The notes beneath the pieces are model-generated. The model ran no database searches. It saw nothing but the letters and a program-made list of their open reading frames with translations, and was not told the origin of the DNA. Positions 1 to 58,399 of a stretch of DNA of 64,000 bases are shown one piece after another; positions within the stretch are counted from its first letter, which is position 1, and the number at the start of each line of letters is the position of its first letter. The position numbers and the translations under genes were made by a program. Source of the DNA: Hexactinellida sp. DTS-2022 (taxonomy: Eukaryota > Porifera > Hexactinellida). The stretch spans positions 14,250,501 through 14,314,500 of the forward strand of contig JAPNXP010000001.1 of assembly GCA_028753945.1 (NCBI GenBank), written 5' to 3'.

Positions 1-1505
1 ATGACGCTCACATACCTGGCTGTATATTTCATTATTGCAGTTGGCCTCTTGGTTGTTGATACTGCGCCTGTGCTGGTGGAGAAGTCCTCAGACAGCTGTC
101 CGTGAAGAGGTTCCACATTTCTCCAGGATTGCTGGGCTGCCGCTGCATGTGGAGAGGATGATGGCTAAGAGGCTCCTTAGGTTGGCAGGAGACTTGGTGA
201 CAGTGGCCTCCTCCATTGCCAGGCTCAGGTGTTGATCGTTTCAGGAGTCCTCTGAACAAGCAGGCTTCCCGAAATGTGTTGCAGATGTTGTTGTTGACCG
301 TTCTGAGGTCCTGGAAAGAAGTGGGGTCGGACACCTCGTTGAGCAAGAGCCGCAGGTAGTAGCATTCTCCAGCTCTGGGACTGAAAGTATAGATTCTACC
401 AATGGCATGAACCCTCCAGATGTCGTCAACTTGATCCTCTCCGTCTACCAACTCTCCTCTCTTGCGTAGCTCCCACTTCTTGGTGCCCTTGTTCCAGGTG
501 TAGTACTCGGAAAACTCGGGGTATTTAATGCTATATGCAAAGCTGTCTTTGGTGCAGAGTTCAAAGAAGGCTGTTAGGATAGTTGTTAGGGGTGGGCCTT
601 GTGCTCTAGGGCGTTGGTTTCGGAGATCATCACCTCCGGCCGTTCTCCAGGTGCACTGTCAGTCCAACCACAGGCGGGAAGTGCTCGTGAGTGGGGTGTC
701 GGGGATGCGCCAGGCTGCTTCGCTGCTGCCCACATACCTGGCATTCTGGAACTGGGCGACTCTTCCACTGCCCTGAGCTGGTGTGGCTGCTCTTGGTGTT
801 TCCCTCCTCTGTGCGCTGCAGTTCGAACACCGCTTGGTCCGTTCCATTAGTACGTATTTCAGTGCGGACTAGATGCTTTTGATGCTGCTGCAGATCTCTA
901 CGCTGATGTGACAGTTGAACTGACGCACCAGAAGGGATTGTATGGCACTACCCACTGGTTGGTGACCTCCTGTCTATCTGCTGGACATACTGGCGCATAT
1001 TTACAGTGCCTGTGCTTCGGCCGTCATCTGGCTTGCGGCGGCGGTATATTGGGTAGCTGTCGTTTCCTTGCTCTGTGCATTGGAGGAACTGATTGGGGAA
1101 ACCCTTGGTGCACTGACCGTCGACCATGCAGGGAGAGTTCTTGTTTAGAGTGCCGCATGGACCGTGAAACATATGAGAGAGGACCAGTTTGTGGAGCGTC
1201 ATGTCATTGGTCTTGTCGGGGATCTCTGCAGAGATGACCAGGTCAATTTCTTAAGGCCTGCACATAGAAATGCATATGAAATTAACATCACAAAGGTTGG
1301 GATTTGATAATTTGCTTTATGAATACACCTAATCTTATCCCCCGGGTCCCGCCAGATGAGGATGTGAGCTTGAGGGATACCACGTTTCTGGTACTCGATT
1401 GAGTACAGCGATGCCGATTGCGTCTTACTTAATCAAGAATTTCATTTATTTTAGTTTCTGAGGAAACCCCCTAATAACTAATTCTGACCGGTCCTGGAGA
1501 TCCTT

Positions 1506-37746: not shown

Positions 37747-38851
37747 TTATGTTGCAGCAACAGAAAGTGGAATAACGTCATTAGGCCTGTCTCGGTTAGG
37801 TTTAGGGGCTTTTCTAATGATATTAAGGTGGAGGGAATGAGAAATTTGAGCGGGAGTTATTCTGCGACAACAGCAACAATATTTGTGAAGGATTGTTTCC
37901 TTTATCTGACACGTAATTAGTATAAAATGTGCTATGCCGATAGGAGCGTTTATGAGAGAGACGATAAGGGGAGCTATGACATGCTTTAGTGTGCCATAAT
38001 TTCCGACCTCATTCAATTGGATTGCGATCAATGCAATGAAGGGTAGACTCAAAGGGAGACCTAACGCTGGTATCAACAAAATGGCCCCAATAGCAACTCT
38101 ACGGAGTCTCTTCAAATCTCCCTCATGACTATTCTGTTTCCTAAGTGCTAACCAGATCTTAAAGAGACATAGGATTAGCAATATAGCGTTTGTTAGGAGG
38201 ATTGCGACCATTAAACCGAGAAATGACCAACTAATCACTGGCTTTGAGTTTCCATATGAAAGTCCACATGGAATGTTAACAGATACACAGGGTACGACAG
38301 TTAGTGCATCATACGATACCCACGCTGCAGCCCATAAGAGAGAGACACCCCAACAAATAGGAATTAAGTATCTATACAACTTCCTAGCTGTGTGTCTCCT
38401 GCTGACTACCCATATTGTGTAGAAGACTACTATCGCTATTGAGAGAGAGGATAGAAATACGTTAGTCCACAGGAACTGGAGAACGAATGATGTTACAATG
38501 CAGAAAACAAACGGAACATCAAATGGAGGTAGAAGTGGTAAGCTTAACATAGCCAGGAATAGAGCAAGTGTGTTATTGAATTGGAGTACATTGATATCGT
38601 GAGAAAAGAATTTCTTCCAAGACACAATGAATATGATAAGAGATGATGTCAAGAGTACTAAAGACGTCAACCATAGGATTGTGAGTATTGTGAATAAGGA
38701 GTAATTAAACAAATCTAGGGTTAAGTAATAAGACAATGGTTCGGATTTAGTATTAAATCCTACTGTTAGGGTACTTATTCCTTGATGATGGATGGTACAC
38801 AGTATGGTTTTACATGATTTGAATGTCTGCACTCCAATAGTTGACCAATTT
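37747..38851 (-). CDS. Lectin GPCR exon 8: GPS-like segment, seven-helix domain, tail
   Basis: A 1105 nt terminal exon preceded by acceptor tgttcttag. It begins NWSTIGVQTFKSCKTILC and continues TIHHQGISTLTVGF, a GPS-like sequence. Seven hydrophobic helices follow: the first around SLFTILTILWLTSLVLL, the third FLWTNVFLSSLSIAIVVFY, the fourth LIPICWGVSLLWAAAWV, the fifth SFLGLMVAILLTNAILLIL, the sixth RRVAIGAILLIPALGLPL, and the seventh IVSLINAPIGIAHFILITC. The tail has a CCCCRR cluster, possibly palmitoylated. It is closest in style to adhesion (family B2) receptors. No stop or frameshift. Confidence 0.88.
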
Positions 38852-41800
38852 CTAAGAACAGATTTATAATTATCCTAACTTATAACAAACTTATAAATAT
38901 TTATAGAAAAGTATTACTCACCCGTCTGAGCTCAGATATAAACACTCATCATCTTTCTAAAGAATGAATTTCAGTTAACAAATTGAATTATAATCTAAAC
39001 TAATAATTGCATGAATTTAGTAATAGGTACTCTCGATTTATTATCAAACTTACATGGAAATAATAGTAGGAAGGTTCAAAGACAATTGTTAAATTTGTAG
39101 TAGAGTTGTAGCTTGTGTAAATGGTAATTATGTCACTTCCCAAACTAAAGCTGAAACACTAAATGTAAATACGTAACTCTGAGTGAATATGCACTAAGGT
39201 ATTTCACTTTATACTTTGGTGCTATTTCAGTTTCCTTGGTTACTTTTACCATAAAATTGTTTCTCTGATATAACAAGGAACATAAATAACTGAAATTGCA
39301 CGAAGTGTGATAGTGAAATACCCTAAATATGAATCCAGAACTTACTCTAAAGAAGTATTTTCGAATTTGCTTGTATCAGAAGTACTATGAATAACCAGGC
39401 TTGTATTTTCTATAAGAGTGGAATAATAAACATGCAATAATAACTATACAACATCTATGCCTACGTGATTATATTTGATTCCACACTTTTGTACAAAATA
39501 GTTACCAAACAATTATTATTTGTGCAAATTCCCATTATAATCGCCATTCCTTCAAAGCATCTATCTATTTCAAATTAAATGGATACAGTCGAATCTGCTA
39601 ATAACGGCCACTTGACAAAAATGACAAAAAAATTGCGTTTTGTACTGCCATTATACACACGGTTGAATATAATAGTAGGGCAGCTTAAGCCCATATTTTG
39701 AAAGGATGTGGAAATCCCGGACCAAAGCACCAAATTTTTTCCACATATCGACCATTGCTTGGGAACTCGATTTTTGGTAGGATCCACTTCAGCCGGATAC
39801 ATTATGACCTCCATCAGGCATTTTCAAAATGACCACTTTAATATTATTCGGACAAAAGCCCGCATTCACGAACTCATATCAAATGACTACGTATAAGGTT
39901 ATTATATGCATAGTTGTAATCAGAACAGTCTGCGCTGTCGAAAGATGGGTCACTTGGTAGGGTTGCTATGATTTCTGAGAATGGAATGTTCAACATTCCA
40001 CCGTTGTCAAGGAAACTTTTTAATCTGAATATGTTCATGTGACCCCTCTAATTGACGGAAATTCCATGCTGATTACGAATATCTTATTTCCAGATTGGAA
40101 TAAATATCACTTTAAAAGTTATATTACATTTAGTGGTTAATGATTAGCTAGCTTAAGAGTGAAAAGTGGATATGCCATAAATTTATCTATCATGTCCCTT
40201 CGTTTCAATTTTCTATGTAGCCAAAATAAAATAAAGCTGACTTTATGCTAATCAAGTATTTGTTCCATCATAGGCGCCAATTCTGGAGTTTGGGGGGGGG
40301 GACGACTCCCGGGCCTGTCGGTTGATTTATATTTTATATGAAAGTGGTCATTTTGATCGACCAAGGGATGATAGAGGGTGAGAATCACGTTTGTTTACTC
40401 ATTATATCCAGATTTAGTTTCTGAAGAAACAAATCTGAAAATATTTAGTAAACCTCCCGGTGGCCCCCCCAGACCCCCCAAGTGGCCCCCATCTTTGATT
40501 ATATTTCCAAAACTTGACGCCTACGTGTCCCATACATCATTAACCAACTATCAAACACCAAAAGAATGATATAGTATGGGACATATACATCCCCAGGAGC
40601 ATCGAAGAATTTACTAGAAAAAAAAGAGGTATTAAAGGTTACGGAAAAGTTTGCATGTAAGAAATAAGCTCCCAAGAAATTGGACAGATTTCTTACGTGA
40701 TCCAACTAATAAACAAGAACTGTTTGCATTTCTTTCCAACAAAATTGTCCCGAAGGCAAGGAAATAATCATCACGACTGGTGTCACAGCTATTCTTCGAG
40801 GAAGTGATCGTTCTATGGCACTATGTGATCATAGGGAAGCTGACATTAGACTTCTGATCCATTTACAGGATGACATTCTCAATAACTATACTAAATGTCT
40901 AGTACGCGGGTGGGACATGGAAAGTTACACCACTTGATTACCATATGCACAGATGTGAACATTTGAGGTAGCTTTGGTACAGGAAAGAACTTTACATACT
41001 AACATATCATAGCAATCTACGAAGAAGTAGGAGGGGAGAAATCTCTGGCCCTTCCTGTTTTCCATGGTTTCACGGGATGTGATACTACACCTGCATTCTT
41101 TGGGAGAGGCAAGAAGTCAGCATGGGAGGTTTGAAACTGTTATCATGATGTGACAGTTGCCTTTACCTACATGGCACTCAACCCTTATACAAAAGTAGAA
41201 ATCGATGCTCAGCATTTTTAGCTGCTGGAACGCTTTACAGATATTCTAAATGATATAGCAAGTAATTTGTAGTATGTGGATGAAGGAAGAAAAGAAATAT
41301 TTTGTGAGGAGAAAACAATGGAGAGAATACCGCTTACGCGGGATGCACTACTACAACACTCAAAACGAGTTGCATATCAGTCTGGATATGGTGCACCAGT
41401 GAGCAAATTGGACAACGTGTATCTACTCCAGAAGGTCGGGGCTGGACTATTGATGATAAACCCAAATCATGGGTTCCTGTATGGAACAGTTTACCTGTGG
41501 CTTCAAATGCATGCAGTGAATTCGTAAAATGTAGTTTCAAGAGTAGAAGTGACTTTGGCAGTAGATGCGCGTGCAGAAAAGCGCGTTGGATATGCACAGA
41601 ACTTTGTAGTTGTAACTGTGAGAAGCAATATTTTTAGTGACATGGAACGAACCATAATTTTTAGTATACCATCACAGTATTCACACAATTCTCACTTTAT
41701 TACTTTTACTAGCTAATCATTAACCACTAAATGTAATATAACTTTTCAAGTGATATTTAGTCCAATCTGGAAATAAGATATTCGTAATCAGCATGGAATT

Positions 41801-44800
41801 TCCGTTAATTAGAGGGGTCACATGACCATATTCAGGTTAAAAAGTTTCCTTGACAACGGTGGAATGTGGAACATTCCATTCTCAGAAATCATAGCAACCC
41901 TACCAAGTGACCCATCTTTCGACAGCGCAGACTGTTCTGATTACAACTATGCATATAATAACCTTATACGTAGTCATTTGACATGTCTTCGTGAATGCGG
42001 GCTTTTGTCCGAATAATATTAAAGTGGTCATTTTGAAAATGCCTGATGGAGGTCATAATGTATCCGGCGGAAATAGATCCTACCAAAAATCGAGTTCCCA
42101 AGCAATGGTCTATATGTGGAAAAAATTTGGTTTGGTCCGGGATGTCCACATCCATCAGCTAATCTGCCCTACTATAATACAGGAAATCAGATAGGAATTA
42201 TTCACCATTTTGGAATGAAAATGTGGATATTTTATAAAATTTTAAACTTGTTTAAGATAAATTATTCCCCACGGATACCAGATTTAAAGTATGTACGTAG
42301 GTAGCTCGTTCCAGTTCCTCAATTAATTCTTACATCACTATGATTTAATATACATATCTATTTTATTAAGAAAGCTTGGTCCGTCCGTCCGTCCGCCCCT
42401 GTAACTCTTTGCTACATTACTCGATCCTGACGAAATAAATATCAATCGAAAGCTCTTCCAAGGGAGACCTCGGGAAATATACTGGGTTCCACAAAAAGGT
42501 GTTAGTTCCATAATTACACAACATTTTGTGTTTTCGTACTAATGTGCATAATAAGCCTATTGTTAATGGTCTAATCCTATTGGTTACTGCTAACTGGGAT
42601 ATTTACTATTTATGCCGACTAATTCGTCGCAAGGCGACGGGTCACTTGGCTAGTACATATAATAATATTAGTATTAATATTATTAACTATTCACCTTGAA
42701 ATGTATTAGTTCTTATCTGTATACTAGTGATATGTGTAATGTATCCATATATTGGTATTTGTATTTGCGTGTTTGCTCTCAGTTTAGTGATAACAATATC
42801 TATAAATAGAAAGAATGAATATCATTCATTAATCATCATTACGTAAATAGTACTTGCATTAAATTCTTACCTTGTTGATTGTCATAGAAGCCTATAATAT
42901 CATCTGTAGTTAAGTTAAAGTTTAGAGTCAAATTTCTTAAATAGCTTTCTGTTGGGATACCAGAGCTGAACTAAATAAACAGAGTAGATTAATATTATGG
43001 GAGAGAACGTATTTCTTGAATTGTTAATCTATCTCTCATTCTAAGTAAATTGACTGTCAAAAGGCTTAATTAAAACATATTCATAAAATAATAAAATAAC
43101 TCGACATAACATATTATCAAGGAAACTATGCGATTTGTGGGTAAAAATGCTAATCAATATTTTCCTTTCATATTTAGTTGAAAAGTGGGTGACAATGAAT
43201 TTTAACAATAGATATGTAGAATTCAAATAACCAATGAAACAATTTGACAAAGAGAATCCTTATATAGAGCTGAGCTTTGAAGAGTTCAGATTTTTCCCAT
43301 ACTATATTATGCCCAGGCTTACTTTCTAAAGGTCAATTTCAAATTCTGAAAAAAAACTGACCTTTCTCAGTGCCTGAATACACATAGTGAAAAACTGAAC
43401 TCTACTAGATATATAAGTAATTTCTTTGACAAATCCAGGGAAGATGAATAATAATATACAACTTACTACAGAAGAGCAAACGTCCTTATAATATTGTATT
43501 CTGGCATACTCTTGCACTCTGTTTTGACACGTCTCATGATCTATAAACATGTATATGTATCTCCATATCTATCTCTATATTAAAAGCGCAATTGTTGTGT
43601 GTTTGTTTGTTTGTTTGTCCAGAATTAATTGGAAAGACTACGAGTCCTAGAAAGCTGAAAATTTGTATACAGGGGTAATTTTGTACTGCGACAACGATCT
43701 ATTGGTTTTTGAAGATAAATATTCACATTTAAAGGTGACAAAATATGTTAGCCAATTAAATTCGAGGGGTTGTTAGTATGGATTAGCAGATTTCATCAAT
43801 TAGTATAAATAGATTGTGCATAATAGAAATATTTTCTGAGGCTCCAATTTGATTGATTGAAAATAAATTCATTTAACCAATCAATCATTAGTCTATTCTA
43901 TTGCCTGTTTTTCTTTTAGTATTATTTTGATTCGAGCTTTCTTATCGTGTAACTGAAATTTATTGAGCTTTTAAAACTCATTATTAATGTGATTGCTTTT
44001 GGGGAGGGAAAGGCCGCGAAGCGGCCGTTAATTATATTGCGTAGTGCCTAACACAAACGAACAAAAGTCGCTTCGCGACTTTTGTGAGAGAGTGATCCGT
44101 CGCGAAGCGACCGAGACCGAAGGGCTCGTATTATTAAATCTCGATTGTTGTTTGTGTGTTTGTGTGTGTGTGTGTGTGTTTGTTTGTTTGTCCGGATTGT
44201 ATTAAAGTGATGGGAGACTAGAAACCGCATTTATATATGAGATATAAACTAACTTTCAAATGTTATAATTGGTAAACAAATGTTATAATAGGTAAACAAG
44301 TATGCTGAACACGAATTTCGCATTTACAAATTTATGACATGAATATTTATTGTTGTTGTTGCTGACACAAAATAGGTAAACAAATTTATGAAAATTCAAA
44401 ATCAACCTAGAAGTTAGCTTTCAACGGGTATTATTGGTAAACAAGTATGCTAAACACGAATTTCTCATTTATAAATTTATAATATAAATATTTGTTGTTG
44501 TTGTTGTTGACACAAAATAGGTAAACAAATTTATGAAAATTCAAAATCAACCTAGAAGTTAGCTTTCAACGGATATATAGGTTAACAATTATGCTAAACA
44601 CGAATTTCGCATTTATAAATTTATAATATAAATATTTGTTGTTGTTGTTGACACAAAATAGGTAAACAAATTTATGAAAATTCAAAATCAACCTAGAAGT
44701 TAGCTTTCAACGGATATATAGGTTAACAATTATGCTGATTTCGAATTTCGCATTTATAAATTTATAATATAAATATTTGTTGTTGTTGTTGACACAAAAT

Positions 44801-47800
44801 AGGTAAACAAATTTATGAAAATTAAAAATCAAACCAGTAGTTAGCTTTCAAAGGGTATTATAGGTAATCAAGTATGCTTAACACGAATTTCGCATTTATA
44901 AATTTATAATATGAATATTTGTTGTTGTTGTTGACACAAAATAGGTAAACAAATTAATGAAAATTCCAAATCAACCTAGAAGTTAGCTTTCAACGGGTAT
45001 TATAGGTAAACAAGTGTGCTTAACACGAATTTCGCGTTTATAAATTTCTAATATGAATAATTGTTGTTGTTGTTTACAGAAAATAGGTTAACAAATTTAT
45101 GAAAATTAAAAATCAAACCAGTAGTTAGCTTTCAAAGGGTATTATAGGTAATCAAGTGTGCTTAACACGAATTTCGCATTTATAAATTTATAATATGAAT
45201 ATTTGTTGTTGTTGTTGTTGACACAAAATAGGTAAACAAATTTATGAAAATTCAAAATCAACCTAGAAGTTAGCTTTCAACGGATATATAGGTTAACAAT
45301 TATGCTAAACACGAATTTCGCATTTATAAATTTATAATATAAATATTTGTTGTTGTTGTTGACACAAAATAGGTAAACAAATTTATGAAAATTCAAAATC
45401 AACCTAGAAGTTAGCTTTCAACGGATATATAGGTTAACAATTATGCTGATTTCGAATTTCGCATTTATAAATTTATAATATAAATATTTGTTGTTGTTGT
45501 TGACACAAAATAGGTAAACAAATTTATGAAAATTAAAAATCAAACCAGTAGTTAGCTTTCAAAGGGTATTATAGGTAATCAAGTATGCTTAACACGAATT
45601 TCGCATTTATAAATTTATAATATGAATATTTGTTGTTGTTGTTGACACAAAATAGGTAAACAAATTAATGAAAATTCCAAATCAACCTAGAAGTTAGCTT
45701 TCAACGGGTATTATAGGTAAACAAGTGTGCTTAACACGAATTTCGCGTTTATAAATTTCTAATATGAATAATTGTTGTTGTTGTTTACAGAAAATAGGTT
45801 AACAAATTTATGAAAATTAAAAATCAAACCAGTAGTTAGCTTTCAAAGGGTATTATAGGTAATCAAGTGTGCTTAACACGAATTTCGCATTTATAAATTT
45901 ATAATATGAATATTTGTTGTTGTTGTTGTTGACACAAAATAGGTAAACAAATTAATGAAAATTCCAAATCAACCTAGAAGTTAGCTTTCAACGGGTATTA
46001 TAGGTAAACAAGTGTGCTTAACACGAATTTCGCGTTTATAAATTTCTAATATGAATAATTGTTGTTGTTGTTTACAGAAAATAGGTAACAAATTGATTAA
46101 AATTAAAAATCAACCTAGAAGTTAGCTTTCAACAGGTATTATAGGTAAACAAGTATGCTGAACACGAATTTCGCATTTGGAATTTAGAATATGAAAAACA
46201 AGTTAAAACTATGGAAATTTTCTAAAGGGATGTATATAAGTCCCTTTCTGCCATTTTCCATGATAGAAAGGGTGAGGAGTAAGGCCGCACAGCGGCCGTT
46301 AACTTGAGGTGCGTAGCACCGATCCGTCGCAAAGCGACCGAGACCGAAGGGCTCGTATTTAATATATTCTTATGTAATGTAGTGATAATTATACATATTG
46401 AGTTTATCTTATTGAGTATTATACAAGTACCAATTGGCTCTATTATTTTTTGAAACTAAATATTTAATTTGCAATAGTTATTTTGATATTCGATTATTTA
46501 TACGAGCCCTTCTATAGACATATTCAGGGTTGCCTTGGGTATGGGAATTCCCATGGGGATCCCCATACCCATGGGAATGGGATGGGAATGGGAATCAGAT
46601 AATCGTCTGTGGGGATCCCCATATTGGGATTCCGATGGGAATCCCCACAGAAATCCAGTGGGAATGGGATGGGAATGGGAATGGATATTCCCCTCCCACG
46701 GCAACCCTAGACATATTTTAATTTTGACAACAAATTATTCATAATGGGCAAAAATATGCCAGAGATATCTCCTTAGTTAATTTATTAAATATACTTACCA
46801 ATTTCACAAACCGCAGTGTGACTAGTGTTGCAGTCTAACGATAAAAACTCAAAGCTTTCTCCATCAAATACCACACAGTCATTACCATACAGTGGATGAT
46901 TCTCCTTCCAATAAATCTGATAATAATCTGGAAAAGTATATCCATCTGTCGATTGAAATTCAGAAGTATCCCCAACTCTCCTATATCCAGTCCAATAATC
47001 TCCCCCATTATTAGCTTTAACGAATGCATATATCCAGTAGGATATATTCTCATTTGATATGTCTCCTTGCTGCTGTACACAAATAGCATTAGCAATATCC
47101 CAGTTAACTTTCTCATTACTGATAGTATAGCAGTAAGAATTTGAGGATTGGCAATCATAATGAACTACGTTAAGACCTAAATATGTTTCAAATAAGAAGC
47201 TGTGGATTAATTATATAATTAATCTATATTATTATCACATCACAATTCCTTACCAACAGGGTTGAAAAAACACGATCAAATTTCAAAGAATAAACAAATG
47301 GATTTTCTTATTCAAAATTACACAGTTATATATGGAAGACTTTTTATCCTGTATTTAATTGATTGCTCTACGTATTCCATTAACCATAGTTTAACAAACA
47401 ATTAGCGTAAAATAAACTAATAAGTATTCCTAGCTCTAAAATGAAGGAATATTTATGCGTGTATTTAGCAGCTTGTATAGATACAAATGAGAAGATTGAT
47501 TGCTAAGTGATTAATCAGGATCCAATCACCACAGGAAACATATGAGCTGAGGCAATTAAACTTAGGAGTCTACTGCCATAACTACATAGTAAACTATATG
47601 TCTGTTTTTGTACGACACTATCAAGAAAATGCTTCCAACAACAATTTGGAGTGTCGATAATAATTTTTTATTATGGTAAGACATATCGACATTTATATAA
47701 TATAGCATTGAGATAGTCGCTAAATTCACTTTTTCAAGTGGGATTATTTTAACCCAACATTACACGACATTGTGTATCTTACACCACACTTTGGGGACAT

Positions 47801-48185
47801 TGCTAATTAATACGTATATACTTGATCCAAATAAATATTAACAAACAAGTTGTCGTATTTAGACTGTGATGATATGCAAAAATGTAATTAAATCAAGAAA
47901 TCATTTATTTTGAGTGATATTAATAATTATTTTTAGAAATATTGGGACATTAAAGTATGCACTGAGTTTCTAAAATAAATATTTTTTTTAGAAATAGAGC
48001 TCAGATTCCCTTCATATTATGAAATTGTCTATAATGTTGCAAATCATCATTTAATGAATACTTAACGCATATACGTATACTCTAGTTTAACAAATATATT
48101 TAATAATTTTAATATGTTAACCTGTTGTTTGTTGCAAAGATATCCCCGATAAGAGAATAATAGCCAATATTAATAGTATTTTCAT
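37747..48185 (-). CDS. C-type lectin adhesion GPCR, 8 exons, apparently intact
   Basis: A spliced gene for a plasma-membrane receptor. Exons on the minus strand: 48185-48122, 47176-46799, 43540-43467, 42970-42871, 39409-39346, 39144-39054, 38956-38922 and 38851-37747. All introns begin GT and end AG. The phases run 1, 1, 0, 1, 2, 0, 2 and agree at every junction. The total is 1911 nt, 636 residues plus stop. Order: signal peptide (1-20), C-type lectin domain (about 30-147), short GAIN-like stalk (148-257), GPS-like segment (258-310), seven transmembrane helices (about 316-590) and a basic cytoplasmic tail. The GPS cleavage tripeptide is not canonical (HHQGIST), so self-cleavage is doubtful. 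Coupling of carbohydrate or protein binding to G-protein signalling is inferred. Introns hold large repeats (39669-42175, 43573-46360). A decayed paralogue follows at 52587-58365. Confidence 0.85.
38922..43540 (-). CDS. Lectin GPCR exons 3-7: stalk and GAIN-like region
   Basis: Five short exons. 43540-43467 encodes HETCQNRVQEYARIQYYKDV. 42970-42871 encodes FSSGIPTESYLRNLTLNFNL and more. 39409-39346 encodes NTSLVIHSTSDTSKFENTSL. 39144-39054 encodes SDIITIYTSYNSTTNLTIVF. 38956-38922 encodes KDDECLYLSSDG. All have GT donors and AG acceptors (donors GTAAGT, GTAAGA, GTAAGT, GTAAGT, GTGAGT). The last two match the beta-rich end of a GAIN domain, leading into the GPS Cys and Trp. Several Asn-X-Ser/Thr sites suggest glycosylation. 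Exons of this size are easy to miss; the support is the unbroken phase chain and partial agreement with exons of the paralogue (57050-57140, 55559-55646). Confidence 0.72.
40269..40525. mobile_element. Nested MITE, CATAGGCGCCAA ends
   Basis: Ends CATAGGCGCCAATTCTGGAG and the complement of CGTAGGCGTCAAGTTTTGGA, with G- and C-runs inside. Flanks tgttccat and tgtcccat (40261-40268, 40526-40533) match at 7 of 8 positions. Confidence 0.78.
40575..41640 (+). pseudogene. XPG/PIN-like nuclease with CXC tail, transposon-encoded, broken
   Basis: Frame-shifted plus-strand fragments in a consistent order. VRNKLPRNWTDFLRDPTNKQ is near 40655-40715, then ELFAFLSNKIV. ALCDHREADIRLLIHLQDDI is near 40820-40875, with the acidic HxEAD motif. 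FTGC with adjacent Asp and Thr codons is near 41070, then DALLQHSKRVAYQ at 41345-41380. The tail is a Cys-rich stretch CSEFVKCSFKSRS and RCACRKARWICTELCSCNCE at 41516-41625. This order matches a repetitive protein family of sponges and cnidarians with an XPG-like nuclease and a tesmin-like CXC end. The catalytic acidic residues are partly lost to frameshifts. Confidence 0.65.
43573..46365. mobile_element. Two tandem Helitron-like repeats with GC palindromes, carrying a minisatellite
   Basis: Unit starts resemble AATTGTTGTGTGTTTG or CGATTGTTGTTTGTGTG, followed by a TTTG run and GTCCRGA. Unit ends carry short GC-rich hairpins (GGCCGCGAAGCGGCC, GTCGCTTCGCGAC, CGTCGCAAAGCGACC) and then GAGACCGAAGGGCTCGTATT. 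One unit runs about 43573-44130. A second starts immediately after it and ends at about 46360. The head-to-tail junction and hairpin ends suggest non-autonomous Helitron-like elements; this is inferred. Similar modules are at 35340-35390 and, inverted, at 58400-58960. The whole lies in intron 2 of the lectin GPCR. Confidence 0.55.
44235..46185. repeat. ~142 bp minisatellite with 5-unit higher-order repeat
   Basis: Thirteen units with a mean spacing of about 142 bp. Each has a GTTGTTGTTG tract, ACACAAAATAGGTAAACAAA, TTAGCTTTCAA and CACGAATTTCGC. Variant markers (for example ATGCTGATTTCG near 44731 and 45443; CGCGTTTATAAATTTC near 45033, 45745 and 46031) recur at about 712 bp. So blocks of five units were duplicated together. 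Confidence 0.92.
46525..46709. mobile_element. hAT-type MITE with GGGAATGGG words, in GPCR intron 2
   Basis: A 185 bp element with ends CAGGGTTGCC and GGCAACCCTA, a perfect 8 bp duplication gacatatt (46517-46524, 46710-46717), and an interior of CCCATGGGGATCCCC and GGGATGGGAATGGGAATGG words. Non-coding. Confidence 0.92.
46799..47176 (-). CDS. Lectin GPCR exon 2: C-type lectin domain
   Basis: A 378 nt exon between acceptor atatttag and donor GTAAGT. It encodes a long-form C-type lectin domain. Features: N-terminal YDCQSSNSYCYTI, NWDIANAICVQQQG, YWTGYRRVGD, then YGNDCVVFDGESFEF and LSLDCNTSHTAVCEI, with the Cys pairs in the expected places. The calcium/sugar tripeptides EPN or QPD and WND are not present, so classical calcium-dependent sugar binding is doubtful. 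Note that a longer open frame overlaps this exon in a wrong frame (47158-46835). The true frame is fixed by the phase of exon 1 and by the lectin motifs. Confidence 0.88.
47177..48121 (-). other. Intron 1 of the lectin GPCR
   Basis: A 945 bp AT-rich intron with donor GTTAAC at 48121 and acceptor atatttag at 47184-47177. No other feature recognised within it. Confidence 0.7.
48122..48185 (-). CDS. Lectin GPCR exon 1: start codon and signal peptide
   Basis: It starts ATGAAAATAC and encodes the hydrophobic leader MKILLILAIILLSGISLQQ, then TT and one base of the next codon. The donor after CAACAAACAACAG is GTTAAC. The leader has a short basic start and a Leu/Ile core, typical of a secretory signal. 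The single leftover base joins in frame to exon 2. Confidence 0.8.
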
Positions 48186-48252: not shown

Positions 48253-48305
48253 ACATGCTAACCAATGAGTTACGCACAGAATGCGTAACTCATTGGTTAG
48301 CATGT
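48253..48305. promoter_or_regulatory. Perfect 24-bp-arm palindrome 68 bp upstream of the lectin GPCR start
   Basis: The left arm 48253-48276 (ACATGCTAACCAATGAGTTA then CGCA) and right arm 48282-48305 are exact complements with a 5 nt loop. Each arm contains CCAAT on one strand. It lies where the promoter or 5' UTR of the gene should be. It could be a paired CCAAT-type site, a hairpin in the leader RNA or a tiny MITE. Confidence 0.6.
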
Positions 48306-49168: not shown

Positions 49169-50803
49169 CTGTATTTCTCGATCAATTATCCGATTCGGGC
49201 AACCAATTATCCGATTGGGTCAACCAATTATCCGATTCGGGCAACCAATTATCCGATTGGGTCAACCAATTATCCGATTCGGGCAACCAATTATCCGATT
49301 GGGTCAACCAATTATCCGATTGGGTCAACCAATTATCCGATTGGGTCATCCAATTATCCGATCGGAATTACTTTTGATTTTCATTGGTTTATCTATTTAG
49401 GATACTGGGTTGATTAGTATAAAACAAAGTAATAAGAAATAAATATATTCCTAAATATTCAAATATTCATCATAAATTATGGCTTCCAGTTCATACGATG
49501 CAGGACAACACTCTGCCACATCATCTACAGTTGCTATTTCACGAGGTGGGAGAGCAATTTCAAATGAATTACGGCAAAGACTTATCGATGCCCATGAGTC
49601 GGGAGTAACCTATAAACAGATGACCAGATTGTTTGGCGTAAAGAAGGATACCGCTTACAGAATTTGTAGCACCAGACAATATTCTACCAAACTTCGCGGT
49701 GGTCCAAGAGGAAAAAAGTTGGACGAGGATTCGAAAAGTCTTCTCTTAATTTCCATTGAAGCCCGTCCCGATATCACTCTTGGCGAGATGAGAAATAAAC
49801 TACTTCTCGAACGAGGGATAACTGTTTCGATATCTACGATCGCTCGGTGTCTTGAAGGATGCTTAATTACAGTAAAAAAACTTGAATTACTTCCGAGTGT
49901 ACGTAATTCACCCGCAAACAAAGATTGTAGAAGAACTCATGCTCTATGGTTGCAAGAACAGCATGAAATAGGAGCAAGATTCTGTTACGTTGACGAGTGT
50001 GGATTTGGCTTATATACCGCTCGGAATCGTGGTCGATCAATTCAAGGATTGCCAGCTCGAAGGGTTGCTGACAATCAACGAACTCCCCATGTCACTCTGA
50101 TATGTGCTATCTGTCCAGGTGTTGGACTCGTCCATTCAAAGATCCTTTTCGGAGGTGCTAAACAAACACATTTTGATCAATTTATAAGTGAATTATTCCA
50201 TCTCTCGTTTGGTTTGGCATTGGAACCAAGTAGCTCAGTTGACACGGCATTTATCGTACTTGACAACGCTCCTTGTCACCGTGGGATTGAAAATAGACTT
50301 GAAGTTTCTATCCCTTCACACATCGAATTGAAACGCCTCCCTCCATACAGTTGCGAGTTGAATCCGATTGAGTTGTGCTTCCAAAGTCTAAAATCCTATA
50401 TAAAACGAACTCTCAGCGCTCAAGGACCAATTATACCAATTGAGGGCCAAACTATGGTAAGTGCAAGGAGAGATAAACTATTGCAATTATGCCCAAATGC
50501 TTTGGCTCAAATTACTCCAGCAACTTGCCTGAATTCGTTCTACCATGTATTGACAGCAACAGTTCCGAGAGCAATACGCCTTGAAAATCTCTAGCAGCTA
50601 CATTATTCCAATATATATATATGATATCCAATAAATCACTTTATCCTATATTAATTAACTGTATTCATTATCACTATTATATCAAATATATCACTATAAT
50701 TGTTGATTGCTCGAATAGGATAATTGGTTGCCCGAATCGGATAATTGGTTGCCCGAATCGGATAATTGGTTGCCCGAATCGGATAATTGACCGAGAAATA
50801 CAG
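49169..50803 (+). mobile_element. Tc1/mariner element, complete and possibly active
   Basis: A 1635 bp element with ends CTGTATTTCTCG and complement, flanked by TA (49167-49168, 50804-50805). Inside each end is a tandem array of a 21 bp unit (CAATTATCCGATTCGGGCAAC): nine units at the left (about 49182-49366) and four inverted units at the right (about 50708-50789). It encloses one intact transposase gene. The uneven arrays and close similarity of the right-end units suggest recent slippage. Confidence 0.93.
49479..50594 (+). CDS. Tc1/mariner transposase, DD35E, intact
   Basis: A 371-residue transposase that would cut and paste its own element. Residues about 20-70 form a paired-like helix-turn-helix (ISNELRQRLIDAHESGVTYK) and a second DNA-binding helix region lies at 85-135. 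The catalytic triad is visible: Asp172 in CYVDECGFG, Asp262 in IVLDNAPCH, Glu298 in ELNPIELCF. There are 35 residues between the second Asp and the Glu, one more than the DD34E of classical Tc1. No stop or frameshift, and start and stop both lie within the terminal arrays. The length is typical of the superfamily. Confidence 0.93.
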   Translation: MASSSYDAGQHSATSSTVAISRGGRAISNELRQRLIDAHESGVTYKQMTRLFGVKKDTAYRICSTRQYSTKLRGGPRGKKLDEDSKSLLLISIEARPDITLGEMRNKLLLERGITVSISTIARCLEGCLITVKKLELLPSVRNSPANKDCRRTHALWLQEQHEIGARFCYVDECGFGLYTARNRGRSIQGLPARRVADNQRTPHVTLICAICPGVGLVHSKILFGGAKQTHFDQFISELFHLSFGLALEPSSSVDTAFIVLDNAPCHRGIENRLEVSIPSHIELKRLPPYSCELNPIELCFQSLKSYIKRTLSAQGPIIPIEGQTMVSARRDKLLQLCPNALAQITPATCLNSFYHVLTATVPRAIRLENL

Positions 50804-50805
50804 TA

Positions 50806-52586
50806 GTTTGGTACGGAATTTAAGTTTGCCTCCACATTTCCTCCAAATGATGATATATTGGGAGTTATGAAAAGAACAATCAATCACAGTTGATTTCATA
50901 TTAACTATTAGTGACAGATGAACTGATTTCAGTTAAGAACTAACGGTATATTTCGTTGTTATAGTTGGCCTCCTGGTTTTGATGCGGCGCCTGTGCCATT
51001 GAAAGTACTGTAATGTACTAATGTCTCATATAGCATAGAAGCGTGACCTACGTTATAATAAGGCCTATTCACTGTTATCAAAATGTGGACTATGGATACT
51101 GTCGAAGGACATTGTAAAATAGAGGGGACTACTTTATCTCAATTATTCGTAATGGTAGACCTGAATATGTTTTGTAACTATATGGGAACATCCGAATATG
51201 AAATATAAAACCTTTCAGAATTGAAATATGTCATCATTTGATGACGTAATCGTCAATTTTCGTTCGAATTATAATGTTTTTAAAGCCCTGTTTTAACACA
51301 GTTAAACGCGTTATATAAGTTCAACATTGGTACATGATGATACCCAAACCTAGTTAAATAAAATATATCAAAATTATAATAGGAATGTTGACACATTCCT
51401 CGGTTGTCAGGCAAATGTATATTTCCTAAAATGAGCAATAACACCAAAACTATAATCGTTATGCAAACTAGACTACGCCTCATCTATCCGCAATAGGTGA
51501 CTTCCTATTCATCGATAGTACATTTTCTATACCTTACATTGATACTTTTTGAGTTTATGAGATAATTAACTCGTATTCCGTAAATGGTACCGAGCTCATA
51601 AACTCAAAAAGTATCAAAGTAAGCATAGAATTGTTTATACTACCTGGGACCTGCAGGGAATATTATGGGACTATTGACAACTCAATGGAAGCTGAAATTT
51701 TATTGGTTAAAATTATTACTGCACTAGGGGACAGTTAATTGTTATTTCTTTGATACACAAATAACTCATTTAATTAGACCAATTAAACTCGAGTCATGGA
51801 TATTGCGAAAACTCTACAATCTGGCTGGCCATGGTCAGTACAATATTGAAGTGTGGAAATATGCCTATGGTAAAATGCAAAATATGCATTGGGAGGGGTC
51901 CACTGAATATATATTATTTGCTATAAGGGATTACAAGGTTGGGAATCGCTGTCATAAGGTTTTCACTCAGTGATACGTATTTATCTTCAGCGTTTAAACT
52001 TTAGATTGGAGTCACCTCGGGACCAGGTTGCTTTGACTCTGATTAAGCCTAGAAATAATATATTAACAGAATACATTTTAAGACAAAATCAAATTCGGTC
52101 CTATAAATCCTGTGAGATTTTGACCCGATTAAGCGGAGAAATCTATTAACCGGTGGCTCTATTAAGCGGATTCTACTGTATATGCTCAGTTATAATTTGT
52201 TAATAATACAGTGGGGTTCGCGTATATCAAGTCGCATTTTACACGAAATTTTCTTGTTCACAGGCGAATATTGCTATTAGAGGAATTAATAATACGAAAA
52301 CTACAATGTATTTACAATAAAAGATTCCTTATATGTAGACGGTCTATAAGTGCCTTATAATGTACTCCATCAAGTAAGGTACATACTACCAATATATTTA
52401 CTGTATAGATTTATAGATGATCCCCTTCAATTAACAACGAACAAGACTTTAATAATCAAAACACAATCATAATAACTAACACATAAAAGAAATTATCTAC
52501 ATTGAAATACACAAAGCAAATTGTTTACAGTCATTATAACAACATTAAATACATCAATTGAAATTATGTTTGTAAAAGTAACAAAA
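50806..52586. other. Intergenic with repeat shards
   Basis: It contains a short Helitron shard at about 50955-51000 (GTTGGCCTCCTGGTT ... GCGCCTGTGCC, compare 38-75). A hairpin with 23 bp arms lies at 51539-51617 (TTGATACTTTTTGAGTTTAT and complement). The flank repeat is at 51660-51955. No gene recognised. Sequence past 52000 is AT-rich and holds the 3' flank of the GPCR pseudogene. Confidence 0.5.
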
Positions 52587-53523
52587 TCATATGAAGGACA
52601 ATTCCACCATTTCATTTACGTAAGCAATATCAGTAGTATTAGCATTTCTATTGATAGAGTTACCTATTTTAGGCAAAAACCGATTAGCACTGTTATTAGA
52701 ATTTATCGAAGTCTGAGGTTCTTTTCGACGCCAATATTCCGAAATGACCGTATTAGTTAATTGACAGGTTATAAATATGAAATGAAGTATACCAATGAGA
52801 GTAGTGGATATAATGTATACAAGTTCAAATACTGTGTACAAGTTTGTATCGTGTTTATATAAACTTGGTAATGCCAGGGGTAATGAAGAAATGAAATATA
52901 AACTCAGAGCTGGAATCAAACTGACACCTCCAAATGCAACTTTTCGTAATGTTTTGAGCTCCCCTACTGAATTATCTCGTTTTTTAAGTGCTAATCTAAT
53001 CTTATAGAGAGATATTGCAAGTAATAAGGCATTGGTTAGTAGAATTATAAACATTGGGATGATAAACGTCCAAACTAAATTGGTCTCTTTGCTGATGAAA
53101 CATGTCCATATTTGGGTTTTATTGGTGTTATTATTGTTGTTGTTACATTGCTTTTCTGGCTCAGGATTTTATATATCTATGTAATGATTTTTCGAAATAC
53201 CGATTATAAGCCATACTAATGCCCACGAAATTGAGATAAACCAACTAATTGGAACTAAAAACTTGGATAGTTTTCTAGCTGTGTGGTTAATGTGCTTAAT
53301 GCTGACTACACAAATGCTGTAGAATACAAGTATTCCTAAGGCCAAAGAAGATAGAAATACGTTAGTCCATAAGAAATGTAGTAGGAATGCAATTGTTGTA
53401 CAGAATTGAATATTGTACTTAGCTAGATCAACAAACAAGAAGCAACTTACTCCAACCAAAAGAGATAAAGAATGATTAAAATGCAGTACATTAATGTCTA
53501 TAGAAAAGAATGCTTTTCCAGAC
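52587..53523 (-). pseudogene. Seven-helix domain of the paralogue, helices 2-7
   Basis: It reads from KAFFSIDINVLHFNHSLSLL through helices 3 and 4 to GISKNHYIDI, then an in-frame TAA, then continues in the same frame (NPEPEKQCNNNNNNTNKTQ) through helices 5-7 and a tail ending EMVELSFI. The frame is preserved across the stop, so inactivation by this change is recent. Helix 1 is missing beyond the inserted palindrome. Confidence 0.82.
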
Positions 53524-54993
53524 CAGGGACTTCTTTAATATAGGGACTGTAAACTTCGTTTTACGGTAAAATTAGCGTAGGCCTAAAACAGTATTGTTAC
53601 TTATTGATATCCCGTAATCCGCTAATGCTAGACATAGGAAATGTATTATTGTCGTATAGGAAGTCATATTTTGGGAGTCCAACGGTAATATTGGTTTATC
53701 GAAAATATTTGTGGAATGTGAGTTATGCGATTTTCACACCCTTCCATATATGGTAATATTGTTAAAATCTCGAGATTACTTAACTTTATACATATGAAAT
53801 GTATCATTTTCGTACAGGAAATCATATTTTGGGAGTCCAACGGTAATATTGGTTTATCGAAAATATTTGTGGAATGTAAGTTACACGATTCTCACACCTT
53901 TCCATATATGGTAATATTGTTAAAATCTCGAGATTAGTTAGTTTTATACATATGAAATATATTATTGGCGAATGGAAATGGGAATTCATATTTAGGGACT
54001 CAGTAGATCACATTGATTTACCTAAGCCGTTCCCCTTAGCCTATATTATTATTTTGGCACTCTCCATAAGAGGATTGCCCCGACCCTGTTTTGTAGTTTA
54101 GCTAATTCTTACATTATTAAAAAATCTTGATAAGTTTCTTTCAAATCTATATTTAAATCAATGTTGTCCAATAAAATGTATTAAGTGGTGATGAGAAATG
54201 GATTTAGGACTACATATTCTGATAAAATTCAAAAAGAATTAATATTTTATACATTAATTTCCCAATAACTCTACTGTTATTCAACAGACCGGCTAACTGG
54301 TTAATAAAATCTCTAATCGTTAACCGATGTCAGCAACGGTAACCGGTTAACCGAAACCAGCCTTGTTGTTTTTTAATAAACAACATAATGACAGATTCTG
54401 ATATATAAGTATTAGCTAAACTACAAAACAGGGTCGGGGCAATCCTCCTGTGGAGAGTGCCAAAATAATAATATAGGCTAAGGGGAACGGCTTAGGTAAA
54501 TCAATGTGATCTACTGAGTCCCTAAATATGAATTCCCATTTCCATTCGCCAATAATATATTTCATATGTATAAAACTAACTAATCTCGAGATTTTAACAA
54601 TATTACCATATATGGAAAGGTGTGAGAATCGTGTAACTTACATTCCACAAATATTTTCGATAAACCAATATTACCGTTGGACTCCCAAAATATGATTTCC
54701 TGTACGAAAATGATACATTTCATATGTATAAAGTTAAGTAATCTCGAGATTTTAACAATATTACCATATATGGAAGGGTGTGAAAATCGCATAACTTACA
54801 TTCCACAAATATTTTCGATAAACCAATATTACCGTTGGACTCCCAAAATATGACTTCCTATACGACAATAATACATTTCCTATGTCTAGCATTAGCGGAT
54901 TACGGGATATCAATAAGTAACAATACTGTTTTAGGCCTACGCTAATTTTACCGTAAAACGAAGTTTACAGTCCCTATATTAAAGAAGTCCCTG
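53524..54993. mobile_element. 1470 bp palindromic foldback element with near-identical arms
   Basis: Arms 53524-54105 and 54412-54993 (582 bp each) are inverted copies around a 306 bp loop, with ends CAGGGACTTCTTTAATATAG. The two arms encode an identical 70-residue frame on opposite strands (53725-53937 and 54580-54792), so they are essentially identical there. Flanks are tccagac at 53517-53523 and 54994-55000. Each arm also contains an internal direct duplication (GTAATATTGTTAAAATCTCG twice). No transposase. Confidence 0.9.
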
Positions 54994-55221
54994 TCCAGAC
55001 ATAATGAATAATTTTGGTAATGGCAAATCTGTTAGTCATCTCACAAATTTTGTTAGAGGTATAACGAATTTTGGTAGACTTTTACCTAAATTTGTTAGAC
55101 CGATGATTAGGACCCATTTTCTATTAGTAGGCTATTGAGCTACATTAGCAAACTAATTAAGGGAAATTTAATATACCGTACCTGCCATAGTATATCACTG
55201 ATAAAGACTGAATTTATTTAA

Positions 55222-55371
55222 ACATACAGTTCGTTATTACGAAGAGCAGGGAATCGTCAAAAGTGTATTCTTATCTGAAATTCGTATTAGCCAATATCAT
55301 CGAAGTTAAATAGGCTTTGAAGGGAGCTGAAAAAGTAATAACCGTATTCGTACTAACGAGGTTCTAATGTA
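55222..55371. mobile_element. Aged mariner-type MITE
   Basis: Ends CAGTTCGTTATTACGAAG and the complement of CATTAGAACCTCGTTAGTACG, with TA alongside. It lies in the stretch where the missing paralogue exons would be expected. Confidence 0.55.
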
Positions 55372-55909
55372 TGTACGCATATTAGGAATTTATAAAATTA
55401 TCTTGGAAAATGAACCTAAAGATTACTATTGTATCGAGCAATCTTCTATAAGCTAGACTAGGGCATGCCATTGTATTTCACTCAAAAACAAACACATTTT
55501 CACTCTTGTGTTTATTGGAGTTTAATAGTTTATTAGTTTTCATATTTTGCCAACTTACTTTCCCTGTTCACCAGTTGTCAGGATTTGTTCAACAGTAATG
55601 CTGATAATTGTATTATCATGACTAGTGATAATCAACGTTGTATAACCTATAATACATTGAGATATTTTGAATCAAATAATAATAACTTATTGCAATTTGA
55701 AAGTCTATGTTACAGTGAACAAAGGACACGAAGGGATTATAATTAAGTAAATTTTTATAGTTACGTATATATTAATTGTTAATAACAGATAATTGGTTAA
55801 GAGTTTTTGAGAAGCATGAAATAGTAACGAATTATTATTAATTTACCTAGAAATGAACCCTTGGGTATTTTCAGTATAGTTGTTCCGATGTTAATACTTA
55901 TATCTTATA

Positions 55910-56830
55910 TATTTAATCACAATGATTTTTTTTGTTTGTTTGTTTGTTTGTTCAGAATTGATTGAGGAACTGGTAAGAGCTACTGACTTGAAATTTGGCA
56001 GGGGGATAGGGAATACTGTATCTAGAAAGAAGTTCTAATATCTAAGAAAAATATTCACATTTTCCCTCCCTATAGGTGACAAAACTTTTAGCCTATTAAA
56101 TTCGAGGGTTTTCCAGTATGGATTAGCAGCTAGCATTCGATTAGTATAAAAGGATTTTAGTGTCTCTATCATGCCTATCTGAGACTGTGATTTAATTGGT
56201 CTAGAGGAAGTTCATTCATCCAATCAGTTATTGTGTCCCTCTGTCTACCCATACATTTCTAAAATTCCATTGTGTTTATTTGATTATTACCAATCAATTC
56301 AATAACTTCTCCACAGCCCAAAGTCAGGGGTCCACAGAGTTGTACAGTTTGTTAGTGATATTAATTTTCTATTTGGAGTTAGTTTATTAATATATACACG
56401 GACATGCGTTATTATCTAGAAAACTGTCAGTTCTAATTAGCATAAATATTCAACAATACAGGCGCTGATTAGTATTTCCCAATTTATTTTTTATGTCCTT
56501 ATACGTATAACCTATGGCTAGGGCCCACGGATATAGACAGCTTAGGGGGGCACAGCCCTACTCTGAAACAATAGCATTACTGTTATGTGGGTCACTAGCG
56601 GTCACCTAAATATTATCCATATGATTCTCCGTAATATAATCAATTTGTGCTTTTGAATTTAAGTAATGCTCAAGGGGGTTCGTGTTACAACCCGTCCTTT
56701 TTATTACAAAATGACAAAAAGCGTGATGTAGGGAGGGGGTATATAATTTTTCGTCATTTTTCGTTCCATAATCTAAAGTTTTTATAGGAGCCTAGATTCA
56801 GTTTAAGTCTATTGGAGTATATAATTAAAT
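55910..56830. repeat. Large inverted-end repeat, copy 2
   Basis: Collinear with 28775-29880 (CAGAATTGATTGAGGAACTG ... GGGCCCACGGATATA ... CACAGCCCTACTCTG ... CCTAGATTCAGTTTAAG). It lacks the 169 bp insertion present in copy 1 and lacks the inverted right end. It occupies an intron of the GPCR pseudogene. Confidence 0.75.
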
Positions 56831-57540
56831 ACAACGGACATTTAATTTGAAAAGGCATATGTTTTGAAATACAAGCGAGGGCCGCAGGCCCGAGTGCAAG
56901 TTGTAAGAACGCGCGTAGCGCGGACGAGCAGCTTGTACTTATAAATTGGCTTTGATTATACCCAATCACTACCACATCTAGGAATATACACAATAAAACT
57001 ATTCGTAGACAATAAGTGCGGAATTGTATTAGGAGTATGTGTGTATTACCTGCGTTTAGTTCATCACTAATGTACTCTAATATTGTACCAGTTGTTACAT
57101 TAACATTATCGAGTACATTTTGTAAGAATTCCTCTATTTCTTGAAAAGAAGTCGCATTTACATTTATTTATTGGAAAAAGAAATTTACTCAGGGTACCGG
57201 TAGTAAATTTGTATTTGCTAATTTTGGGGGGCTATTATTGGAGGTAGGCGAATAGGGGCTACTATTGAGTATATACGGTATACAGCTAGGTATACTAATG
57301 ATATTGATATATGCTTGATACCTGTCAAAAGAACATAGTTGTTATAACTAATAACCGATACTTTTTCATTATAAATAAATTGAACCGTTTGCTAGAATAT
57401 AATTATTATACAGATATGTTCTTATAACAGATATTCACAGTAATAAACATAAGAACATGTTTACACATGTTCTTACTTCTCAAACGCAAGGGTATACGTA
57501 TATATATATGTAATTTATTAGAATGTTAATGTTTGCTTAC

Positions 57541-57906
57541 CTTTCATACAAAATGCACATCCATATGCCTCACTACGAGTTTTGAAGTCCCATTTTCTTT
57601 CATTCAAACGAAGACCTATAACACCAAACAGATTGTTATCACTACTCTTAGGGCCTAATGGGAAGTCTCCAATTCTCCAATTATAATTCCCTTCACTATC
57701 CGTACTAAATCCAATCCAGCAATAATCATCTGTAGCTCCAACAGGCATATCATTTATTATATTGTCGACATAAATATTTGGGATTTCTGCTAAATAGGAA
57801 TTATGTCCATTACAGTGGTCTATAGCTTCATCCCAATACACTTTATTCGTAAAGTCAAACCTCTTATAACAAATCTCATTTCTGACTCCCCATCCGCTAC
57901 ACACAT
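57541..57906 (-). CDS. Lectin domain exon B of the paralogue
   Basis: A 366 nt exon, phase 1 at both ends, with acceptor ttccatttag and donor GTAAGC. It encodes VCSGWGVRNEICYKRFDF, YWDEAIDHCNGHNSYLAEI, CWIGFSTDSEGNYNW and AYGCAFCMK: a second C-type lectin-like domain. Gene 1 has only one such exon. The first codon inside the exon reads Val rather than a start. Confidence 0.82.
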
Positions 57907-57963
57907 CTAAATGGAAACGATATAAATTATATTGTATGATTAAATATTATTTTACTAACTTAC

Positions 57964-58365
57964 CAGTCTCACAAATGTAGTAATTAGAGTTACCACAGTC
58001 TAACGATACCAAATTGGAGCTATTCCCCTTAACTCCTACACAATCATATCCTTGTATAGGATTGTTAATATACCATTCATTATTGTACGTTAAGTTAGTT
58101 CCATCAGTCCATAGGAACTGTGAAGTGTTCCCAACTCTCTTCAGTCCAATCCAACAATCCTCTCTTCCATTTCTGTTATTGGTAATTCTTTGTATCTCGT
58201 CTCTACTTTCCCAATTGAATATCTTAGCCAGTCTCCCTCCATTGCTCACACAGGTAGTATTAGCAACATGCCAGGTAGCTGTGACGTCACTAATGTTATA
58301 GCAAATGCCTCCTGTTTTGCTAGATACTATTCTGTTGTTGCAAACTTTTGTGAAGGATGATTGAC
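57964..58365 (-). CDS. Lectin domain exon A of the paralogue
   Basis: A 402 nt exon, phase 1 at both ends, with acceptor tactatctag and donor GTAAGT. It encodes VCNNRIVSSKTGGICYNI, WHVANTTCVSNGGRLAKI, DCWIGLKRVG, FLWTDGTNLTY, GYDCVGVKG, and SLDCGNSNYYICETG: a complete C-type lectin fold with WIGL and paired Cys. The sugar-binding EPN/QPD and WND tripeptides are absent. Confidence 0.85.
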
Positions 58366-58399
58366 CTAGATAGTATTTTAAATAACTTATCACCATTCC

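Follow-up and report, generated by a model that had tools for sequence, protein, structure and literature searches.

A lectin-headed adhesion GPCR gene in a hexactinellid sponge, from a family in which one branch has apparently lost the self-cleavage site

The usual account of adhesion GPCRs involves self-cleavage and the exposure of a tethered agonist. A locus in the genome of Hexactinellida sp. DTS-2022 raises the question of whether a C-type lectin-like head and a seven-transmembrane (7TM) body belong to a single receptor gene of this kind, and whether its product would still be cut. The window, the whole stretch of 64,000 nucleotides that was analysed (G000:C1:14250501-14314500), lies in the 112.4-Mb, 18-contig genome that was searched for paralogs. 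The best explanation found for the locus, which is considered rather probable, is one class B2 receptor gene from a lectin-bearing family, in a branch that lost the cleavage site. Its product would begin with a signal peptide, followed by a single C-type lectin-like domain, a short stalk resembling GAIN, the 7TM body and a short tail, and its branch would descend from receptors with a normal GPS whose cleavage site has since been lost.

The eight-exon minus-strand gene model (Table 1) is almost certainly real, judging from the window and its paralogs. The introns are all GT/AG, the phases match at each junction and the frame is open across the eight exons. A sequence-only reading of the window had already proposed eight exons with agreeing phases, and these were recovered when the minus-strand model was rebuilt and compared with paralog exons; its length of 1911 nt and 636 residues is revised to a spliced total of 1920 nt and 639 aa, two splice sites having been settled by the paralogs. 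An exon 3 acceptor at 42970 breaks the frame and was rejected; the acceptor at 42948 keeps the frame and has AG in the window copy and in all three paralogs. A start of exon 6 at 39150, used in an earlier 641-aa model, was also rejected. At this position AG is present in the window copy only and AA in the three paralogs, while the CTTTAG six bases beyond has its AG in all four copies and keeps the phase, and exon 6 was therefore taken as 39144-39054. The signal peptide of the sequence-only reading survives as a signal-peptide-like exon 1, a character judged by eye. The same reading held that the largest open frame over the lectin exon is the wrong one. This does not apply to stop-to-stop frames, the longest of which (141 aa) is the lectin frame itself, but it does apply to ATG-only calling: the lectin frame has no Met, and an ATG-only ORF caller would therefore pick another frame.

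Table 1. Exons of the receptor gene, repeats and neighbouring elements (positions in the window).
Feature	Position	Strand	Residues	Phase	Content
Exon 1	48122..48185	-	1-22	0 to 1	Start codon and signal-peptide-like leader
Exon 2	46799..47176	-	22-148	1-1	C-type lectin-like domain
Exon 3	42871..42948	-	148-174	1-1	Stalk begins; acceptor AG and donor GT in 4/4 copies
Exon 4	42695..42799	-	174-209	1-1	Stalk; paralog comparison
Exon 5	39346..39409	-	209-230	1-2	Stalk; paralog comparison
Exon 6	39054..39144	-	230-260	2-0	Stalk; AG at 39144 common to 4/4 copies
Exon 7	38922..38956	-	261-272	0-2	GPS-like region, first part (ECLYLSSDG)
Exon 8	37747..38851	-	272-639		Remaining GPS-like region without H-x-T/S, seven helices, tail, stop
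Tandem array, intron 2	44284-46195				142-bp unit, 13.4 copies
Inverted repeat, intron 4	39729-42131				423-bp arms, 97% complementary
Perfect hairpin	48253-48305				24 bp, 5-base loop, about 70 bases upstream of start codon
Tandem repeat	49183-49362				21-bp unit, 8.6 copies
Tc1/IS630-type transposase frame	49476-50594	+			About 370 aa
Degenerate neighbour relative	52570..58380	-			7TM remnant about 53530-52570, internal stops, no first helix
Its lectin exons	about 58320-57965, 57906-57541	-
Its stalk exons	57139-57050, 55646-55559	-
Inverted repeat in the neighbour relative	53524-54993				591-bp arms, 99% complementary

The assignment of these exons to one gene is carried by the paralogs. 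A genome search with exon 8 returned 47 rows, the best three after the window itself being C2:6023635 (71%), C2:5190033 (69%) and C2:5138860 (68%), and a search with the lectin exon returned 17 rows, led after the window by C2:5184921 (83%), C2:6021300 (80%) and C2:5135745 (77%). The three best lectin-exon paralogs from the one search sit upstream, on the same strand, of the three best 7TM-exon paralogs from the other. Counterparts of exons 2-8 occur in order and in frame in all three closest 7TM paralogs (77-100% DNA identity); all their donors are GT, and any difference in exon length from the window copy is a multiple of 3. Because of this shared order and these length differences, the exon chain is not regarded as a product of chance. 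A counterpart of exon 1, with the same ATG and a GT donor, was found in two of the three close paralogs; none was seen in the about 2.6 kb of sequence upstream of the third.

The arrangement recurs more widely in the same genome. At 14 of 18 related 7TM loci, a Lectin_C match on the same strand is present no more than 15 kb upstream (no more than 10 kb at 11). This count is generous, since in at least one case, C15:3476144, the closest lectin exon is part of a truncated window-type copy and does not go with that 7TM. These 18 loci, of which the window gene is one, represent the 21 strongest of the 47 exon-8 rows, merged by hand; the other 26 rows, comprising general adhesion GPCRs and short fragments, were omitted from the count. 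No upstream lectin was present within 20 kb at four of the 18. Downstream Lectin_C matches on the same strand occur at 4/18 loci, and a jittered control of the upstream count gave a mean of 1.1 and a maximum of 6/18 in 5000 draws. The paralogs thus support the single gene of the sequence-only reading, ordered as CTLD, compact stalk with a GPS-like end and 7TM, and the gene belongs with other lectin-bearing adhesion GPCRs of its genome in a multigene family.

It is accordingly very improbable that the model, joined by eye over repeat-filled introns, conflates two adjacent genes, one for a secreted lectin and one for a 7TM receptor with a short ectodomain. Introns 2 and 4 each exceed 3 kb and hold the 142-bp tandem array and the 423-bp inverted repeat; furthermore, a lectin exon at C18:5449271 (63% identical) lies on a contig without a related 7TM match, and at C15:3470041 lectin and stalk exons occur in a copy for which no 7TM of its own was found. 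However, only about 2 kb separates the lectin exon from the 7TM exon in the paralog C2:6021300-6024780, and the same stalk exons lie in that interval; the phases of the window gene fit at all junctions, and its stalk exons have no other obvious partner.

The 7TM body of this single gene identifies its relatives. In a Pfam run on the earlier 641-aa model, 7tm_2 (PF00002) scored 26.7 bits against a cut-off of 20.6 (E 4e-6), and the nearest solved 7TM by sequence is ADGRL3 (E 4.9e-4). The model of exon 8 folded by itself was poor (mean pLDDT 47.7); when 16 relatives were included, the model showed seven long helices and a short eighth (mean pLDDT 61.1, pTM 0.54). A Foldseek search with the latter model, which is of low-to-middling confidence, ranked ADGRF1, ADGRL4, ADGRL3, CD97 and GPR110 (ADGRF1 again) as the top five, followed mostly by class B hormone receptors, with class A receptors lower (A3AR at rank 28, FFAR2 at rank 34). 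Both the seven helices and the adhesion-GPCR kinship of the sequence-only reading are borne out by these matches, and there is little doubt that the receptor is kin to class B2. Descent from GPS-bearing receptors is likewise recovered on two 7TM-core trees built without vertebrate receptors. As in vertebrate ADGRL3, ADGRF1, ADGRL4 and CD97, a 7tm_2 bundle is preceded by an ectodomain and a GPS-like region that adjoins the first helix; unlike these receptors, the window receptor carries a lectin-like head and has neither H-x-T/S nor a GPS score. Its stalk, from the lectin domain to the first helix, measures about 165 residues and is shorter than a full GAIN domain, which comprises about 320.

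The head qualifies as a C-type lectin-like domain on its profile and cysteines, as the sequence-only reading had it. Lectin_C scored 31.8 bits against a cut-off of 22.6 (E 2.6e-7) in the same Pfam run on the 641-aa model, and the six long-form cysteines are kept at residues 30, 37, 54, 122, 137 and 145. The nearest solved structure for this part by sequence is lymphocyte antigen 75 (E 3.3e-6). Calcium-dependent sugar-binding C-type lectins are marked by the motifs EPN or QPD together with WND. In the alignment with lymphocyte antigen 75 neither EPN/QPD nor WND is present in the window domain, where HPL stands opposite EPN and FLS at the place of WND. The domain therefore does not class as a calcium-dependent sugar-binding lectin and classical binding of this type is not supported; it may bind protein ligands, or glycans in another mode. 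The ectodomain contains nine N-glycosylation sequons. As a protein query, the lectin exon found no homologue in a large protein set (no candidate with three shared words).

The GPS-like region is where the window gene departs from its relatives. The Cys/Trp region pointed out in the sequence-only reading is present at the expected GPS place, but it gave no Pfam match to GPS (PF01825) or GAIN (for GPS, E up to 5 in one search and up to 1 in another), and the cleavage motif in it is broken up. The corresponding stretch in relatives from this genome is W-S-T-E-G...C-T-T-N-H-L-T-T-F-A-V-L (C-x-x-x-HLTTFAVL), and two of three relatives tested exceed the GPS Pfam cut-off. The window gene reads W-S-T-I-G...C-T-I-H-H-Q-G-I-S-T-L-T-V-G, with two residues inserted and the agonist strand altered, so that HHQGISTLTV replaces the NHLTTFAVL that holds the H-x-T/S site and tethered agonist. 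The region was also compared with that of P0027 from the glass sponge Oopsacas minuta, one of 54 relatives of the C2:5267918 receptor, which has both GPS and 7tm_2 domains. Its GPS starts QCVFLTSDGTWSTEG, close to ECLYLSSDGNWSTIG in the window gene, and its QCVFLTSDG is resembled by ECLYLSSDG of exon 7.

The distribution of the site was read on a tree of the 7TM core only, with 81 of 82 rows (P0048 was too short and was left out); the H-x-T/S labels on it rest on a simple pattern and the alignment. The clade that contains the window gene (SH-aLRT 100) has 27 rows, four from the genome of the window and 23 from the protein set. Within this clade, H-x-T/S is found in 0/21 scorable rows, six rows ending before the region, and the His is mostly gone. 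The 71-row family has 44 further rows; the site is present in 32/33 scorable ones among them, the exception being P0026, and 11 end before the region. L006, which lies outside the 71-row family, also lacks H-x-T/S. A smaller, careful tree of 38 rows agrees, with support of 100/100 for the window clade. The contrast of 0/21 with 32/33 on the tree suggests that the site was lost once, at the root of a branch that is expanding. Since no scorable row of the clade keeps H-x-T/S, most lack the His and two extra residues stand in the motif, the window receptor is likely not to be self-cleaved.

A small chance of cleavage remains, because the window gene has a Ser close to the nucleophile position. 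Self-cleavage could in principle persist at a shifted site, ...HQG-I-S-T..., with Ser replacing the usual Thr: in the alignment the nucleophile position is taken by the Ser (ISTLTV against LTTFAV), with a His two residues away. This is judged unlikely, given that the His is missing there in 16 of the 21 scorable clade rows (one of these, P0055, has an adjacent His), that six of the 21 (P0008, P0011, P0013, P0053, P0059 and P0060; alignment read by eye) lack Ser/Thr at the nucleophile place, and that the window gene has no GPS score. In addition, of the three cysteines that the window copy has in the GPS-like region, only two are kept in the three close paralogs.

The window copy could be a recent pseudogene in an otherwise working family. 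Its stop codon comes 7 to 14 residues before those of the three paralogs, the exon 6 acceptor has changed, the exon 1 donor looks weak (gttaac against gtaaac in one paralog), and the adjoining relative is broken. Against the three paralogs, dN/dS is 0.57-0.64 overall, with 0.41-0.81 for the lectin part, 0.65-1.94 for the stalk (where synonymous changes are few) and 0.57-0.64 for the 7TM. Ratios of about 0.6 might be expected of a decaying copy; they also fit mild constraint in a fast-changing family, and alone they are no proof of function. Nevertheless, the 1920 nt contain no frameshift or internal stop, indels relative to the three paralogs are multiples of three, the splice dinucleotides are all standard, and the early stop costs only 7 to 14 tail residues. 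Recent pseudogenisation is thus thought improbable, and an intact member of the lectin-bearing family is preferred.

In the proposed mechanism, the ligand of the lectin-like head would be a protein or glycan of cell or microbe surfaces, bound without a classical calcium site. The uncut stalk would then stay one chain and relay ligand binding or pulling force to the 7TM through a change of conformation and not through shedding, and the 7TM would couple to G proteins. The whole chain, from binding at the head to G-protein coupling, is offered tentatively, as plausible yet somewhat short of probable. More speculatively, sponges of this lineage may recognise self, non-self or microbes by means of a lectin-headed adhesion GPCR repertoire that evolves fast and keeps duplicating. 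One of its branches would have dropped self-cleavage once, radiated into more than 20 genes and come to signal uncut, triggered by force or ligand; this wider picture is doubtful at present. The open-frame radiation has apparently lost the site once, and sister genes in the same genome keep it, which offers a natural comparison. If the radiated branch is indeed uncut, it would constitute a natural experiment on the need of adhesion GPCRs for cleavage.

Polycystin-1 (PKD1) combines a C-type lectin domain and GAIN/GPS in one protein with eleven transmembrane segments; it is not a 7tm_2 protein, as the window receptor is. Lectin C-type domains on adhesion GPCRs are reported from another lineage, amphioxus, many of whose receptors are stated to carry GPS (PMC2246102). 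In the demosponge Amphimedon, 40 adhesion receptors are reported in the passages available, of which 12 lack GPS and some have SRCR repeats (PMC4302439). The GPS-less receptors are described there as lacking N-terminal domains (PMC4302439), unlike the window receptor, a sponge adhesion GPCR likewise, whose head is present and whose GPS region is degenerate. The word lectin is absent from the main text of the Amphimedon survey by term search (PMC4302439) and from the available passages of a choanoflagellate survey (PMC12716839), and no lectin-bearing sponge adhesion GPCR is mentioned in the available passages of four sources (PMC4302439, PMC12716839, PMC6208332, PMC6040629). Thus, a lectin head on an adhesion GPCR is known from amphioxus, and a sponge family of lectin-headed receptors, one branch of which has apparently lost its cleavage site, may be new. 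Such a head adds to the known ectodomains of sponge adhesion GPCRs and bears on the recognition of cells and microbes without adaptive immunity.

Repeats and related fragments occur around the gene and elsewhere in the genome. A Tc1/IS630-type transposase frame lies directly upstream of the receptor gene on the opposite strand (DDE_3 E 1e-17, HTH_Tnp_IS630 barely above cut-off), and the inverted repeat in intron 4 is probably a mobile element. The inverted repeat in the degenerate neighbour stands at the expected first helix of that copy and is probably the insertion that broke it. Two lectin exons precede the stalk and 7TM in this neighbour and at locus C2:5262801-5270377; the two among them that can be delimited at both ends are phase 1-1 modules, like exon 2 of the window gene. 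Elsewhere, L047 (G000:C15, about 3470041-3472371) has a window-type lectin exon, stalk exons and a GPS-like exon reading C-T-T-Y-I-H-G-L-T-T, but no 7TM of its own was found; the copy may be truncated, or it may possibly encode an ectodomain that is secreted. The isolated lectin exon on C18 spans G000:C18:5449271-5449651. Dense clusters of Lectin_C exons were also observed in the same genome at G000:C15:940390-997662, C2:5986131-6012378 and C1:12424416-12683200.
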